A stretch of DNA of 29,474 nt, from IMG/VR virus record IMGVR_UViG_3300035523_000138, positions 1-29,474 of that record. One strand, given 5' to 3'. Shown here piece after piece: positions 13,375 to 26,804 of the stretch (position 1 is the first letter of the stretch; each line of letters starts with the position of its first letter). The translations under genes were made by a program, and so were the position numbers. The notes below the pieces were generated by a model, which worked only from the letters and a program-made list of their open reading frames with translations, searched no databases and was not told the origin of the DNA. Source of the DNA: a virus.

Positions 13375-13818
13375 CTAGTCTTTGAATGAGCCGACTCGCG
13401 AAATCAGTTTCGCAAGCACCGTGAAGGCTCTGGGACAAAGCGGCGAGCCAACCCCCGCATCCATCGGCGAAGCCTTCGCGCCTTCCCATTGTTTGCGGTC
13501 AGCTTCGCCATTCACCATCAACCAATCGGCTTGGTACACCTGCGCCAGCCGCACAACGTCGGGCGTCGCGTAGTCAACCTTGCGCGGAAACGTCAGCGCC
13601 TGGGCGGCGACATCCTTGACCGCGTTGTGAAAGCGGTGTGCTTCAATTTCGATGCATGCCCTCAAGAGCGCTTGATCAATCTGCTGATCCGTCTTACCCG
13701 TCCAGCTCGCGAGCCCCATCTGCGCGGCGAGCGTCTTGGCTTCGGACAAGCTGATGTACGAATTCGAGTCGGCACCGCTTTCGGTGTCTTTAAGAATCGA
13801 TTCGTAGGGATCAGCCAT
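13375..13818 (-). CDS. Head-tail adaptor (DnaT-like/gp6-type)
   Basis: A 147-residue head completion protein. The N-terminal pattern SNSYISLSEAKTLAAQMGL followed by WTGKTDQQIDQALLRAC and ALTFPRKV is typical of the phage adaptor family sometimes annotated as DnaT-like. Such proteins form the ring that connects the portal to the tail. ATG at 13818 is chosen because AAGGA lies 8 bases before it; GTG at 13824 is too close to that site. It is encoded directly after the major capsid protein and before the tail protein, the standard place. Confidence 0.8.
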   Translation of the reverse strand: MADPYESILKDTESGADSNSYISLSEAKTLAAQMGLASWTGKTDQQIDQALLRACIEIEAHRFHNAVKDVAAQALTFPRKVDYATPDVVRLAQVYQADWLMVNGEADRKQWEGAKASPMDAGVGSPLCPRAFTVLAKLISRVGSFKD

Positions 13819-13839
13819 CGCCACAGTCCTTTAAGGAGA

Positions 13840-18706: not shown

Positions 18707-19126
18707 CTAGCTGTCGAACTCACTGATCGCGGAAACCAGCATGCGGAAGCGCGTCTCGATAATCACGCGCCCGCGATCATCGCGAAGTTGCAGCGCGGGC
18801 AACGAATCGACCATGATGTTGCGAATGCCGCTCGGGACCGGCTTCGGATTCTTCTTGAAGCCCGCGAGGATCGCTTTGATCGTCTTCGCCGCGAGCGCGC
18901 GCCCTTCCTTCAACGTTGCCGCGCGCGTGACCAGATGCAGCCGCCAGTTCTGCGCGTTGCTGGACTCATCCCAATCGCCGCCATTCTCAAAGAGCGCGCA
19001 CACCGCGTCCGGCGCGGGCGGAAGTGAAGGTTCCAAGAAGATCGTCGTGCCCGCGACGGCCTTCGCTTCGGTGACAATCCAGTCGCCGACTTGCTCGATC
19101 GCCGCGCCGTACTCGGGAAAGCTCAT
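18707..19126 (-). CDS. Minor virion protein (tail terminator/connector-like)
   Basis: A 139-residue protein just upstream of the portal gene. Pattern EYGAAIEQVGDWIVTEAKAV, then a spaced NAQNWRLHLVTRAATLKEGR with ALAAKTIKAILAG, and a closing RGRVIIETRFRMLV resembles the small alpha/beta proteins that end or join the tail. Those are usually encoded after the head genes, so the location is unusual. ATG at 19126 is preferred because GGAG lies 5 bases before it; GTG at 19129 is too near. I infer a structural role only. Confidence 0.55.
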   Translation of the reverse strand: MSFPEYGAAIEQVGDWIVTEAKAVAGTTIFLEPSLPPAPDAVCALFENGGDWDESSNAQNWRLHLVTRAATLKEGRALAAKTIKAILAGFKKNPKPVPSGIRNIMVDSLPALQLRDDRGRVIIETRFRMLVSAISEFDS

Positions 19127-19145
19127 CACGTCTCCAGTTGCGCGC

Positions 19146-20684
19146 CTACCAGTTCGGCGCGATGTACGGTCCCACGTAATGCACCTGAATCTTCGCCTCC
19201 ATATTCAGGTCGCTGCCTGAATCCTGGTCTGCCCAGACCTCCAAATACTCATTCGTGTTCAGACTGACGATCTGTGAGAACGAGGAGCGCAGCATCATGC
19301 TATTGCTGCTGGCCGGCGGTTCACGCCGCTGCTCCGAAACCTCTGCGAGGCCGTTCAATTTCAGCGCAACCTTGCGGTACGCGCCGCCAGTGCCATCAGC
19401 CCAGGCGTAGTTGCACGTCACGAGATACAGCCCTGCGTGGATAGCCGTAACTTTTGTGTTGTCTGTCACGGTGTCGTGCATCGTGTCGCTGTCGTACACC
19501 TCCCACGTAAATGGACAGGCGCTCGGAGTTGCAGTTACTACCGTCTGACTGCCCTGCGTTGACACGGTGTATTGCGGGGGAGACGGCACTTCCCAACTAC
19601 CGCTTGCCTTCAAAAACTTCCCTGCCGCCGCGTCGCCGGCCGCAGGCGCGGGCACAAGCCCGTGCGATCCGCCTCCGCCCCCGTCTCCGAAAAAATCCCC
19701 CGGCGTGGGCGGCACTTCCCATCCGCCGCTCGCCTTCAGGAACTTGCCCGCCATGTCATCGTTAGCCGCTGGCGCTGGCACTGTACCTTGGCCTCCAGGA
19801 TTTCCGCCAGCAGCACCCATAAACGCCGTGACCGATGAACCAAAGATCGTTCCACCGTTCGCAGTATAGATGCCTCCTGCTTGATCAATGCGAAGCCTTT
19901 CGACGGGAGCCTGTAGCCCGGAACTTGTAGTCTTGAAAATGATTGAGCCGCCGAATCCTGTGTTGGTAGCGCCTCCGCCCGCGAGGATTACGCTACCACC
20001 GGGCACGGCCTCATCAGTCGAGTTGGTGCCACTGATCATGTAGTCGGTTGGTGTCGCAGACGACTTCCCGTTGCCAAACCAAACGTCGGTCACGGGCGCG
20101 CCAACACTGCCGCCGATGAAATCCGTGCCGGTGACGTAGCTTGCGCCGCCCGGCAAGTTCGTTAGGTTCGCCCCGCTAACCGCAGGCAGAGCGCCCGCCG
20201 TCATAACGGGCACGTTCGCGCTCAACCGCGCATCGTCGAGTGTGCCGGTGATCAGGGCGCTCGCATCCGTTGTCGCGCCGCTTCCGCCCGGAAGATTCGT
20301 CAGGTTCGATCCATCGAGCGCCGGCAGCTTGCCGTCGTCGGGAAGCTTCACGAGTTGCCCAGGCCCGTTGAAACTATTGCCCTGCATCGTCAGCTCGTAC
20401 TTGTTGCCGTTCGAGTTGATGAAGAAATAGGTTCGCATCGACTGCGCGTTCGTTCCTGCGTAACCGCGCAAGTATCCCGCTTCAGGATTGGCCGGCTGCT
20501 GCGTGAGCTGAAAGTCTGTGTATTCCTTGACGGTCATTTTGTACGTGGCGAAAGCAGTCACCGCGACAAGCGTCACTGCCGCCGCCGCGCGCAGCACTTC
20601 TGGCGCAGTCATGCGCTGAACCGCGCCCGCCGGCACGCCCGCGCGCGCCGCAAGGTCACGAAGATTTTCGAGTAGGTTAGCCAT
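19146..20684 (-). CDS. Tail-fibre-like protein with N-terminal membrane segment and C1q/TNF-like tip
   Basis: A 512-residue protein built of low-complexity repeats and a globular tip. At the start is a helix, then a hydrophobic stretch at about 31-48 (LRAAAAVTLVAVTAFATY), unusual for a tail fibre. Two LPALDGSNLTNLPGG/LPAVSGANLTNLPGG blocks (about 120-180) and two AGKFLKASGGWEVP/AGKFLKASGSWEVP blocks (about 312-366) are common in phage fibres. After about 370 comes a beta-rich tip (ACPFTWEVYDSDTMHDTV, AGLYLVTCNYAWADG, TNEYLEVWADQDSGSD) similar to C1q/TNF-type jelly rolls. It starts inside the stop of the terminase-small-like gene (8-base overlap). Placement inside the head genes is odd for a fibre; host recognition is inferred. 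Confidence 0.65.
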   Translation of the reverse strand: MANLLENLRDLAARAGVPAGAVQRMTAPEVLRAAAAVTLVAVTAFATYKMTVKEYTDFQLTQQPANPEAGYLRGYAGTNAQSMRTYFFINSNGNKYELTMQGNSFNGPGQLVKLPDDGKLPALDGSNLTNLPGGSGATTDASALITGTLDDARLSANVPVMTAGALPAVSGANLTNLPGGASYVTGTDFIGGSVGAPVTDVWFGNGKSSATPTDYMISGTNSTDEAVPGGSVILAGGGATNTGFGGSIIFKTTSSGLQAPVERLRIDQAGGIYTANGGTIFGSSVTAFMGAAGGNPGGQGTVPAPAANDDMAGKFLKASGGWEVPPTPGDFFGDGGGGGSHGLVPAPAAGDAAAGKFLKASGSWEVPSPPQYTVSTQGSQTVVTATPSACPFTWEVYDSDTMHDTVTDNTKVTAIHAGLYLVTCNYAWADGTGGAYRKVALKLNGLAEVSEQRREPPASSNSMMLRSSFSQIVSLNTNEYLEVWADQDSGSDLNMEAKIQVHYVGPYIAPNW

Positions 20685-21279
20685 TGGCCTGCGGTGCCTC
20701 CTGCTGTTGTGCCTCTTGAGCGAACGCCTGCAACTTCGCGGCGTAGCGCGTCTTGATTTCCGTGATCAATTGTCCGGCCTTGCCTTGCCCGAGCATCTGC
20801 ACGGCCGCTTCGAGAACCGATTCGACAAGCGCGGTTGCTTCGCGCGTTTCAGCCACAGCCGGAATTAGTTCGCTCTTGCGCCGATCGTGAATCTTCGTCA
20901 TCGTGGCGTAGAGCCGAACGGCTGCGTCTGTGTCGAAGTCCGGCTTGGCAGTTTCCTCTTCAACGCGCTTGCGCAGCGCGTCGAGAATCGCCTCGTCATG
21001 TTGCAGGCGCGCCACCATCGTGCCTTCGGCTTCGCGGCGCGCGCGCTCGCGTTCTGCGGTCGCGATGCCTTCGGCCCGAGCGGCGAGCATGCGCTCGCCT
21101 TCTTCCGCCACCATCGCAGCGAATCCGTCTTCCTTCAGGCAGCGGCGCAGCGTGCTCTCGCCGATCTGGCGGAAGCTCTCGTACTCCTCGCGCAAACGTT
21201 TCAGCGCGGCCATGACGTTGCCGCCACTCCGCGCCAGTTCGCGTGCAATATCGCGCTGCTGTTCTGCCGTGTACGCCAC
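20677..21279 (-). CDS. Putative terminase small subunit (Mu Gp27/DUF3486-like)
   Basis: A 200-residue, mostly helical DNA-binding protein candidate. Near the N-terminus is AYTAEQQRDIARELARSGGN followed by ALKRLREEYESFRQIGESTLRRCL, which fits a helix-turn-helix as in small terminases. The central part is a long helix rich in Arg/Glu (GIATAERERARREAEGTMVARLQ), and the C-terminus TRYAAKLQAFAQEAQQQEAP is disordered. GTG at 21279 is chosen because AGGAG lies 5 bases before it, although the frame is open to 21318. It would recognise DNA for packaging and load the large subunit, which lies three genes downstream. Confidence 0.6.
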   Translation of the reverse strand: MAYTAEQQRDIARELARSGGNVMAALKRLREEYESFRQIGESTLRRCLKEDGFAAMVAEEGERMLAARAEGIATAERERARREAEGTMVARLQHDEAILDALRKRVEEETAKPDFDTDAAVRLYATMTKIHDRRKSELIPAVAETREATALVESVLEAAVQMLGQGKAGQLITEIKTRYAAKLQAFAQEAQQQEAPQANG

Positions 21280-21294
21280 GACGACTCCTGAAGC

Positions 21295-21320
21295 GGTTGT
21301 CGAAGGAAACTCCGACAACC
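21295..21320 (-). other. Hairpin upstream of the small terminase start
   Basis: A perfect 8-bp inverted repeat (GGTTGTCG / CGACAACC) with a 10-base loop, lying between the stop of the coiled-coil gene (21327) and the preferred GTG (21279). There is no T tract, so it looks more like a translational or processing element than an intrinsic terminator. Confidence 0.4.
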
Positions 21321-21326
21321 TAGCCG

Positions 21327-21719
21327 TTAGTGTCCGAGAACTTTCGCGATGGCAACCGTGATGCCGCCGCCCGCCGCGCCCGTCGCCATTGCGCCGATAA
21401 TTCCGGCGACGGAGTTGCCCTGCTTCTCTGCTTTCTTTTCGAGTTCCGCGATGCGCGTCGAGTGTTCGACGAAACGCTTGTCGCCTTCGTCCAGGCGCGT
21501 CTTGACCGCAACCAAGTCTTTGCCTTGCTCGATTTGCGTGTCGAGGATTTTCTCTTGCGTCACTTCGATCTTCGTCATCTGCCGTGTGAGCCGATCCTCA
21601 GTCGCGTGCACATCCGCGCGCACGCTTTCGATGCCGCGCGTCATCGTCTCTTGCACGCGCGCCGCGTACAGATCGAGAAGGTCGCGAGCCTCGGGGGTGA
21701 GCTTCACTTCGTCAGCCAT
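21327..21719 (-). CDS. Coiled-coil protein with C-terminal membrane anchor (XhlA-like layout)
   Basis: A 130-residue protein. Residues about 20-100 are a continuous amphipathic coiled coil (ARVQETMTRGIESVRADVHA, then TRIAELEKKAEKQG). Residues about 103-126 (VAGIIGAMATGAAGGGITVA) are a Gly/Ala-rich membrane segment ending in AKVLGH. This order resembles XhlA-type cytolysis helpers and other phage membrane accessory proteins. ATG at 21719 follows GAGGGAGAATCTAT. It is adjacent to a divergent plus-strand gene and shares a mirrored leader with it. A lysis role is inferred from layout only; a second holin-like candidate lies nearby at 22225-22506. Confidence 0.6.
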   Translation of the reverse strand: MADEVKLTPEARDLLDLYAARVQETMTRGIESVRADVHATEDRLTRQMTKIEVTQEKILDTQIEQGKDLVAVKTRLDEGDKRFVEHSTRIAELEKKAEKQGNSVAGIIGAMATGAAGGGITVAIAKVLGH

Positions 21720-21734
21720 ATAGATTCTCCCTCG

Positions 21735-21772
21735 CGTATTCACTCAGTGAGCACGTGTCGGGAGTGAATACG
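21735..21772. promoter_or_regulatory. Inverted repeat in the divergent intergenic region
   Basis: A perfect 11-bp inverted repeat (CGTATTCACTC at 21735-21745 and GAGTGAATACG at 21762-21772) with a 16-base spacer. Both genes also have GAATCTAT near the ATG, so the two leaders are mirror copies; the minus-strand copy has an extra block containing its GAGGGA ribosome site. A shorter palindrome TCACTCAGTGA lies at 21740-21750. It could be an operator acting on both genes, or the trace of an inverted duplication. Confidence 0.5.
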
Positions 21773-21777
21773 AATCT

Positions 21778-22224
21778 ATGTCCGATACCGTGGACGGCGC
21801 GATCAGAGACCTTGCGCGAGAAGGCGACGCGAAGGTTCTGCGCGCGTTCAAGCAAGCTCTGGGAAATGTGGAGGGCGTGTCGAAAGACTTGTGCCCGGTC
21901 GGGCACTACGGCCGCAAACGCGGCTTTGGCGGCCGGGCCGGCGCTGCGCTACAGAACTCGCTGCATGTTGAGTTTCTCGGACAGCAGGGAACGGACTTGA
22001 TCGGCCGCTGCATTTCGCCGCTGCCCTACGCGCGCGCGCAGCACGAAGATCTGTACTTCCATCCGGGCATCTACACCGGCGCGCCGGGCTCGCAGTACGA
22101 AGCGAAATTCTTCGAGAGAGCGGTTGCGATCATCTTCGGAAACGGCGTCGATCCTGCCGGCGATCCGGGCGGGCAACTCCGCACGCTGCCGGCAGGGTTT
22201 CAAGAATTGCTGGAGGGAGCTTAG
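21778..22224 (+). CDS. HK97 gp10-like minor virion protein, only plus-strand phage gene
   Basis: A 148-residue protein that resembles head-tail connector/tail completion proteins: CPVGHYGRKRGFGGRAGAAL then NSLHVEFLG, PLPYARAQHEDLYFHPGIYT and GSQYEAKFFERAVA, the familiar order of small-loop, strand, Y-A-x-x-x-E and H-P-G-x-x-T motifs of the gp10/HK97 family. It is encoded on the opposite strand to all other phage genes and converges tail to tail with the gene at 22225 (stops abut). The ATG at 21778 has GGAG 13 bases upstream, which is far, so it may be weakly translated or use another start. Coding on this strand is better supported than the poorer minus-strand frames there. Confidence 0.65.
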   Translation: MSDTVDGAIRDLAREGDAKVLRAFKQALGNVEGVSKDLCPVGHYGRKRGFGGRAGAALQNSLHVEFLGQQGTDLIGRCISPLPYARAQHEDLYFHPGIYTGAPGSQYEAKFFERAVAIIFGNGVDPAGDPGGQLRTLPAGFQELLEGA

Positions 22225-22506
22225 TTACTTCTTTGTTTGAGCGATACGAAACAGCACGCCTACAACCGCGCCGATGCCGCAGACAATAATTGCCATTTGG
22301 CGCTCGTGCATGCGAGAAGCGTTCACTATGCGCCCTACCGGAGAATCAACCGATGGGTCGAAGCCGAGCCAGAAGTAGACTATTCCACCAACGCATGCGG
22401 CCATCCACACAAAGAACAGCATCGCTCCCCACTCATCACTGCCAGCATCGCTCTCGCGACTCGCGTTCATCTGCTGCAATTGTTCATCGTTCGGATGGAA
22501 TCCCAT
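22225..22506 (-). CDS. Small two-pass membrane protein, possible holin
   Basis: A 93-residue protein with a polar N-terminus, a first membrane segment at about 27-47 (WGAMLFFVWMAACVGGIVYF), an outward loop with DPSVDSP, and a second at about 71-88 (MAIIVCGIGAVVGVLF) ending in a basic KK tail. Size and topology fit a class II holin, but no motif proves it. ATG at 22506 follows GAGGAGGGGCTT, a strong ribosome site. Its stop abuts that of the plus-strand gene. Confidence 0.6.
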   Translation of the reverse strand: MGFHPNDEQLQQMNASRESDAGSDEWGAMLFFVWMAACVGGIVYFWLGFDPSVDSPVGRIVNASRMHERQMAIIVCGIGAVVGVLFRIAQTKK

Positions 22507-22861: not shown

Positions 22862-24225
22862 TTGTAACGCTCCACATAGTCGCGCTGCCAGTCTTCAGAG
22901 CCCAACGGATAGGCGGTCACAACTTCGCCGTCCACAGGCTGCACGATCGCAACCCATCGTGCCTTTGGATCGTGGAAGATCAAGCGCCCCTGCAAAGAGA
23001 CAACAGGATCGCCTGCGCCCGCGCGCAACGTATCGGCGATGCGCTGCCGGTATTCCTTGCGCGAAGTGATGCCGCTGTCCTCCATGCGCAAGGTCAGATG
23101 CACGTCTTCCGCCCAGGCACTCTTATTCTTCGCCGGGAAGAATTCCTTCGTCCCCACGATTCCGGGAATCGGCTCGCCAGCCAGCGTCTTGTTGCTGCCC
23201 GTCAAGCGAACCGTTCGACTCCCGAACCCTTGCCGCGCCGCCGTCTCCGCGATTCGCGCTGCGTATTTCGTCGGGTCTTTTTCGAGCTTATCGAGGAACG
23301 CCTTCTGCGCGGAAGCGACCGGACTCTTCTCGCCGCGCGTGAGCATCGCATCATCAGCGACCGGAACTTTGCCCGCTTGTTTTTTTGTCATCACAAACGG
23401 CGAAGGACTGTGGCGGCAGTTCGGATGAAACGGCGGGCCTCCGTTCGGACAATCGGCGAGCAACGGCACGTCGAACGTCTTCGCGGCCTCTTCAGTCAGA
23501 GCAAAGACCTTGCCTTCCAATTCCAGGCAAAAGTCGATCGCGCCCGGCGCGATGTTGATCTTCACCGTTTCGATTCCCGCGTCATCGCAGTAATCGAGCG
23601 TGCCTTTGTTATTCGCCCAGACCGTAGTTGTGCGCGCGAGCATGTGCGCGTACTTTTCGGCGCTGATCACAAACCCGTTCTCAAGCTCGATCGCCGCGCC
23701 GCGAATGAGTTCGCTTTGCACGGGCTTCCCCGTCTCCGGTAATTCCTTCTGGATCAGCTTCGCCGTCTGCCCCCAGGTCAGTCCGCGCGCGTTGGCTTCC
23801 ATGACGAGTTCAGCAAGCTTCGCCTGCTTCTCTGGAAGCATCTTCGGCGCGATGAACGGAAGCGGAGACGTTGCGTTGCTCAGCGCCGCCGCGAGCGGAT
23901 CGGCGGCGATCCGCCCGAGTTCCAGCATCACGTTCTTATCGATCGCCGGCGTCAGGCCCGCGCCGCCTTGAAGCAGCCCGGCCGCGTTTGCTGCGACGTA
24001 GCCTTCTTCGTAGCTTGCCGCCAGCGCGCCGCCCAGAGCCTGAAGTTGATCCGGATTGCGCAGCCGATCGAGCAACTCACGAATGCGCGCGGCGGCGAGT
24101 TTCGCGCGCCGGACATCCCCGACGATCTTGTTGCCGTCGCGTTCCACCAAGAGCGGTTCGAGCTTCGCGAGCAACGCGCGCATGACGCGCTCAACCGATG
24201 CGGCGGCTTCCTGCTGTGTGGCCAT
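22858..24225 (-). CDS. Mu F-like minor head protein with C-terminal BECR-like domain
   Basis: A 455-residue minor capsid protein, the homologue of Mu gpF/SPP1 Gp7 that enters the head and may follow the DNA into the host. The conserved core runs from KYAHMLARTTTVWANNKGTL (about 191-210) to CPNGGPPFHPNCRHSPSPF (about 259-277), the hallmark HPNCRH motif. After about 310 comes a separate domain: VHLTLRMEDSG, EYRQRIADTLRAG, GRLIFHDPKARWVAIVQP and DGEVVTAYPL. That order resembles the barnase-EndoU-ColicinE5-RelE-like nuclease domains fused to phage head proteins. ATG at 24225 overlaps the upstream stop (TAATG). Open frame further upstream is ignored because it lies inside the sigma-like gene. Confidence 0.8.
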   Translation of the reverse strand: MATQQEAAASVERVMRALLAKLEPLLVERDGNKIVGDVRRAKLAAARIRELLDRLRNPDQLQALGGALAASYEEGYVAANAAGLLQGGAGLTPAIDKNVMLELGRIAADPLAAALSNATSPLPFIAPKMLPEKQAKLAELVMEANARGLTWGQTAKLIQKELPETGKPVQSELIRGAAIELENGFVISAEKYAHMLARTTTVWANNKGTLDYCDDAGIETVKINIAPGAIDFCLELEGKVFALTEEAAKTFDVPLLADCPNGGPPFHPNCRHSPSPFVMTKKQAGKVPVADDAMLTRGEKSPVASAQKAFLDKLEKDPTKYAARIAETAARQGFGSRTVRLTGSNKTLAGEPIPGIVGTKEFFPAKNKSAWAEDVHLTLRMEDSGITSRKEYRQRIADTLRAGAGDPVVSLQGRLIFHDPKARWVAIVQPVDGEVVTAYPLGSEDWQRDYVERYK

Positions 24226-24752
24226 TATTCGTCCTCGTCTGTTTCTTCTGCTTCTGGCGCGAAGGGTTCGGGGATTGAATCGAGCGAGTAGAACTTCGGC
24301 GGCTTCTCGATGATCTCGCCGGCCGCGAGCGCGCGGTCCAGCTCGCGCTTCTGCTTGCGCATCCAGTCGATCAGCCGGTTGCGCGCGAGCATGTACGAAT
24401 ACTGCTTGAGCGTGACCTTCGCATTCTTGAGCCGGTACTTCTGCAATTCGGGCCACGCCAGATCGTAGACCAGGGCGCAGAAGTCTTCGAAGTCCATCCC
24501 GGCCGGCGTGAATTGCGCGTGCTTCGCCGCCACAATCTTCGCCGCCTTCAGCAGCGCCAGCGCGTAGCGATCGGCCAGATGCGCCGGCAACGGCTTGATG
24601 CGCAGCGAGCGCTTAAACGCCTTCTCATTCAACTCCCACAGTTTCCGCGTGTCATCCGTGCGCCGGCGTGAACCGATCACGGCGATCTTCAGCTTCGGCT
24701 GAAGTTCCGGATCAAAGGGAAACTGCATCGCCCGCATCTGCACCGCGCCCAT
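24225..24752 (-). CDS. Sigma-70 region 2-like protein lacking region 4
   Basis: A 175-residue protein. Residues about 57-140 follow the plan of sigma-70 region 2: LADRYALALLKAAKIVAAKH, then FEDFCALVYDLAW, TLKQYSYMLARNRLIDWMRK and QKREL. This corresponds to the core-binding helix, the aromatic promoter-melting part and the -10 recognition part. After that the chain ends in an acidic linker (SIPEPFAPEAEETDEDE); no helix-turn-helix for -35 recognition is present. It sits at the border between early genes and virion genes, where Mu places its late activator C. ATG at 24752 follows AGGAGCGGACAAG. I infer a transcription factor role for the late operon; confirmation is needed that the fold is a true sigma domain. 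Confidence 0.65.
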   Translation of the reverse strand: MGAVQMRAMQFPFDPELQPKLKIAVIGSRRRTDDTRKLWELNEKAFKRSLRIKPLPAHLADRYALALLKAAKIVAAKHAQFTPAGMDFEDFCALVYDLAWPELQKYRLKNAKVTLKQYSYMLARNRLIDWMRKQKRELDRALAAGEIIEKPPKFYSLDSIPEPFAPEAEETDEDE

Positions 24753-26756: not shown

Positions 26757-26804
26757 CGCTCTCGAATTCTGAGTTCTGAATTCAGAATTCAGAATTCGAA
26801 AGCG
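26757..26804. repeat. 48-bp near-perfect palindrome with four GAATTC sites
   Basis: A palindrome centred between 26780 and 26781. The inner 38 bp (26762-26799) pair at 18 of 19 positions and four more pairs extend it on each side after a mismatch, with no loop. GAATTC occurs at 26764-26769, 26778-26783, 26785-26790 and 26792-26797. It is AT-rich inside GC-rich DNA and lies in the 104-base gap between two genes. In RNA it would fold into a long hairpin; in DNA it could extrude a cruciform. Confidence 0.85.

Follow-up and report, generated by a model that had tools for sequence, protein, structure and literature searches.

A probable neck-connector gene displaced and reversed against the virion genes of a phage, with a mirrored leader in its divergent spacer

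In tailed phages, virion genes tend to lie together in a single block read in one direction, and Ne1 normally has its place in the neck cluster. The window analysed here (the 29,474 bases of IMG/VR virus record IMGVR_UViG_3300035523_000138) raises the question of why a gene resembling Ne1 runs against this block, and what role, if any, is played by the mirrored sequence in front of it. The explanation that we favour, and hold to be probable, is that of a displaced and inverted working neck gene, expressed from its divergent spacer; the dyad there would be a relic or a control site and does not act as a switch.

Over the whole window, the ORF list, family matches and homology place every identified phage gene on the minus strand. 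These include the genes for a methyltransferase, tail proteins, tape measure, tube, adaptor, capsid and scaffold, and those for terminase, portal, tail terminator, fibre, the probable small terminase subunit (terS), a MuF-like head protein and the genes upstream of it. According to an earlier note, the remaining phage genes are all on the minus strand, and this is true of every identified phage gene in the window. The only other credible plus-strand ORF (1-867) lies at the window edge and encodes a secreted-looking product that may derive from host DNA. It begins at window base 1 and shows repeat-like secreted sequence together with a signal peptide; its last part looks out of character, as though a host gene had been cut at a provirus edge. 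Two further minus-strand genes were recognised in passing: 2119-2325 encodes a clear cold-shock domain protein (PF00313, E 1.3e-21) and adjoins the DNA methyltransferase gene (1017-2009), and 7502-7909 matches PF23140 (podophage GP4 fibre gp80, E 1.4e-12) inside the tail module that also holds the tape-measure gene. The genes on which the argument turns are the following:

13375 to 13824, minus strand: head-tail adaptor Ad1, with the tail tube gene directly next and no Neck1 gene between
18707 to 19129, minus strand: probable tail terminator
20677 to 21318, minus strand: probable terS, assigned only from its position and a weak HTH match at the N-terminus
21327 to 21719, minus strand: divergent partner gene, 130 aa from ATG 21719 (ORF and a codon score of 0.611)
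21778 to 22224, plus strand: probable Ne1/Neck1 (HK97-gp10-like) head-tail connector gene, 148 aa (codon score, profile, anchor residues and model)
22225 to 22506, minus strand: convergent neighbour, a small protein with two apparent membrane segments

The plus-strand frame has a clear coding signal. It is open for 148 aa, and ATG 21778 is its first start because an in-frame stop (TGA, 21748-21750) lies just upstream. Its codon score is 0.305 per codon, within the 0.30-0.64 of the phage genes on which the score was trained and the best among plus-strand ORFs of 100 aa or more, whereas the other five frames score 0.034 and lower. A gene on the opposite strand of the same segment was considered and set aside, as the antisense ORFs score lower. 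At its 3' edge the stop of the plus gene (TAG, 22222-22224) touches the minus-strand stop of its neighbour (TAA, 22227-22225), with zero bases between. The divergent partner encodes a coiled coil and a hydrophobic C-terminus that is XhlA/holin-like by eye; searches of Pfam and PHROG gave no clear family for it.

Comparison at the level of profiles, residues and models indicates that the 148-aa protein very probably belongs to the Ne1/Neck1 (HK97-gp10-like) group. Most families of the Ne1 superfamily of Type 1 tailed phages, which includes SPP1 gp16.1, lambda gpZ and P2 gpS and corresponds to PHROG 5 / PF04883 HK97-gp10_like, are very divergent (PMC4362835). A direct search of Pfam and PHROG with the protein found nothing up to E 1, sequence and fold searches of the PDB gave nothing significant, and no close relatives of 21778-22224 or of its neighbour were found in viral, genome and phage collections. 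Among 11,174 ORFs from the comparison loci, its two best matches (E about 0.01) were an ORF annotated 'tail completion or Neck1' and the homologue of that ORF, with several of the next-best matches coming from the same Neck1 family. When the Neck1 profile was run against the ORFs of the window, 21778-22224 was the sole plausible match, at weak E values of 0.046, 0.0092 and 0.18 in three rounds, and hhalign of the protein against Neck1 gave a probability of 72%. All four invariant columns of a 22-member alignment (18/22 of whose rows were recognised as PHROG 5, tail completion or Neck1, and 12/22 as PF04883) are present in the protein as P40, Y84, H89 and E90. The family core P ... YA..QHE ... 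K(F/Y)(L/F)E is found with P40, Y84, A85, H89, E90 and K110 aligned, and the stretch YARAQHEDLYFHP...AKFFE fits the family motif YA..QHE...HP...AK(F/Y)LE. A model built from the alignment reached a pLDDT of 73.7, and its BFVD matches included type I neck, HK97 gp10 and putative tail component proteins (probability up to 1.00, E weak, at best 0.01), a likeness of fold that is not independent of the alignment because the model was built with Neck1 rows. A structure model from the single sequence (pLDDT 35) was useless. The earlier reading of the gene as gp10-like is thus upheld as probable by the Neck1 profile, the four anchor residues and the resemblance of the model to HK97-gp10/neck proteins. 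Since the window has no other Neck1 candidate, the phage would otherwise be without a protein that is present in all Type 1 phages surveyed (PMC4362835).

The location of the gene is as unusual as its strand. The usual order in Type 1 phages is Ad1-Hc1-Ne1-Tc1, and Ne1 is 'most frequently positioned' between Hc1 and Tc1, a placement that is not obligatory (PMC4362835). Here the Neck1-like ORF is not at the Hc1-Tc1 position and is found reversed, upstream of the probable terS. In all of the 50 comparison loci with a Neck1 match (33 distinct clusters), Neck1 lies on the portal/capsid strand (50/50); the arrangement pointed out in the earlier note, a gene against the virion operon, is present in this window and was seen in 0/50 of those loci. 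Pattern scans and alignments of portal and capsid across viral contigs gave a single clade relative, IMGVR_UViG_3300015360_000248 (L087), with tblastn identities of 54% for portal and capsid, 45% for terminase, 52% for the adaptor and about 46-47% for the tail terminator. In both phages Ad1 is directly beside the tube gene, with no Neck1 between them, and the portal is preceded by the probable tail terminator, a placement by which the pair mark out a rare phage group. The L087 contig starts inside the fibre gene and ends before the region matching the reversed gene, and a search of its frames gave no Neck1 match. An assembly artefact or chimera might come to mind with a single metagenomic record and no relative across the junction, but it would need two junctions, one of them exactly between two stop codons and both sparing intact genes, and we regard it as very unlikely.

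Between the reversed gene and its divergent partner lies a spacer with 48% GC, compared with 60.5% for the window. Its parts are:

21720 to 21777, no strand: divergent spacer of 58 bases, with an imperfect dyad centred at 21753.5
21720 to 21727, no strand: left outer arm ATAGATTC
21728 to 21735, minus strand: 8-base block present in the leftward leader only, with most of the ribosome site GAGGGAG
21735 to 21745, no strand: left inner arm CGTATTCACTC
21762 to 21772, no strand: right inner arm GAGTGAATACG
21772 to 21779, no strand: right outer arm GAATCTAT, reaching into the plus gene's ATG

The inner arms are inverted copies of each other over 11 nt (100%, 11/11) and the outer arms over 8 nt (100%, 8/8), which bears out the description of the two leaders as mirrored. 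Each read from its own gene, the leaders are GAGTGAATACG-CGAGGGA-GAATCTAT-ATG for the leftward gene and GAGTGAATAC--------GAATCTATG for the rightward gene, that is, the same 18 bases differing only by the 8-base block. The divergent gene does have an extra block with the ribosome site, as had been claimed, and the spacing of this site to the ATG is 7 nt. The plus leader does keep some site of its own, GGAG, though at 13 nt before the ATG the spacing is poor. A CACGTG is nearly concentric with the dyad.

The mirrored repeat is real: for this one site it exceeds chance at a level of roughly 1% to 0.1%, which is not overwhelming. Dinucleotide shuffling of the local 79 bases yields an 11-base arm in 17/20,000 cases, and the leader pair of 21720-21777 is the top-scoring of 378 leader pairs (13.6, with 13.3 and 12.4 for the next two). 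An equal gapped score occurs at 145/20,000 random positions with the same divergent geometry (0.7%), and 4 such inverted pairs were observed in the whole window, the 21735/21762 pair included, against 0.71 expected. We judge the repeat real but not extraordinary because shuffles rarely produce it, yet the geometry rate is 0.7% and three other pairs are equally long. The strongest dyad of the window is elsewhere, at 26760-26800, where short palindromic repeats (TTCTGAATTC units) cluster between two minus-strand genes. An RNA hairpin at the leader was also considered and rejected: minus-strand stability is ordinary (z -0.19), the plus strand has mild extra stability (z -1.9), and the best fold of the leader RNA makes no use of the 11-base arms.

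Inverted repeats beside a lone reversed gene bring to mind an invertible segment, in which the gene would flip by recombination at the mirrored leaders and so switch its expression. Such a segment needs repeats on either side. Here both arms lie on the same side of the gene, upstream of it and 16 bases apart, so the only DNA that recombination between them could invert is the 16-base loop 21746-21761. A similar sequence beyond the 3' edge (22224) was looked for and not found, and among the genes scanned there is no recombinase, invertase or integrase family, though one could lie outside the fragment. The motif is not enriched in the rest of the window either (8 matches, 6.3 expected), a count at chance that also led us to discard a recurring operator. 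The proposal of a two-way switch is therefore not sustained, and we give an invertible segment almost no credence. The note's other reading, a local inversion, is possible if taken as an event of the past.

If the dyad is fixed, it would be either a shared control site for the divergent pair or the trace of a rearrangement that placed the gene. As a control site it may be an operator for a dimeric regulator governing both genes, a role predicted from its position: it is a near-symmetric site, with the nearly concentric hexamer, in the only divergent spacer of the window. Against this, the dyad is present in a single copy in the window, no regulator was identified, and there is no recognisable promoter. 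We consider the operator a genuine possibility, somewhat short of an even chance. As a trace, the mirrored leader would be the functionless scar of a fixed inversion or of fold-back copying by which the displaced gene acquired a ready-made leader. The identity of the two copies over 18 bases save one 8-base block fits such an origin, as does the stop-to-stop abutment at 22224/22225, which suits a segment cut and turned. The other edge has no repeat trace, however, and the arms are perfect although neutral scars should decay, and we hold the scar to be possible to the same degree as the operator. A third view makes the spacer a packaging end (cos/pac region) near terS, with the reversed gene as the last one at the opposite end of the packaged DNA. 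The dyad does precede the probable terS by about 400 bases, but a coding gene stands between the two and L087 breaks off before the dyad region; we think this view unlikely.

Returning to the displaced working neck gene, its expression can be outlined as follows. A working Ne1/Neck1 connector gene outside the Ad1-Hc1-Ne1-Tc1 cluster, reversed and upstream of the probable terS, would have its promoter within the 58-base divergent spacer or next to it, be transcribed to the right and yield a low-copy connector protein. No consensus (sigma-70-like) promoter was seen around the spacer, but this divergent phage, which possibly encodes its own sigma-like protein, may do without one. The candidate for the latter is 24225-24752 on the minus strand, where Sigma70 region 2 was matched at E 0.007, below cutoff. 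An intrinsic terminator was sought without success (no T-run, count at chance). Leftward transcription of the remaining genes probably crosses the plus gene in antisense, since the stops abut and no terminator is evident.

If a displaced, reversed Ne1 is indeed what this locus holds, a neck protein can come from a separate transcript, and the phage offers a natural way to ask whether the dosage or timing of the connector is important. Beyond phage genome architecture the significance is small. A bolder and rather doubtful idea is that throughout the rare clade the neck gene is reversed and has a symmetric, shared leader, by which the connector would be timed or dosed apart from the other virion proteins and possibly restrained by antisense transcription.

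Among known systems, the Mu G and P1 C invertible segments are flanked by repeats and have the invertase (Gin/Cin) alongside. The present locus is like them in having short inverted repeats near a virion gene, but differs in that both arms are one-sided and a recombinase was not found among the genes scanned. Compared with the Ne1 superfamily, the 148-aa protein is alike in anchor residues and size and may be alike in predicted fold; it differs in being too divergent for a direct family match, in carrying 12 inserted residues between the conserved P and the G.L motif that comes after it, and in the reversed position of its gene outside the cluster. A neck gene that is reversed behind a mirrored leader may be new, although annotated phage collections may already contain cases. 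For a reversed gene within a structural module, precedent exists in the bS21 genes of a group of large phages, which lie on the reverse strand within the TerL-portal-protease-MCP region and are transcribed (PMC9723584). bS21 is a homologue of a ribosomal protein and not a virion gene, and a mirrored leader is not mentioned in the part of that account considered here, but in both cases a single gene within a virion module is reversed.
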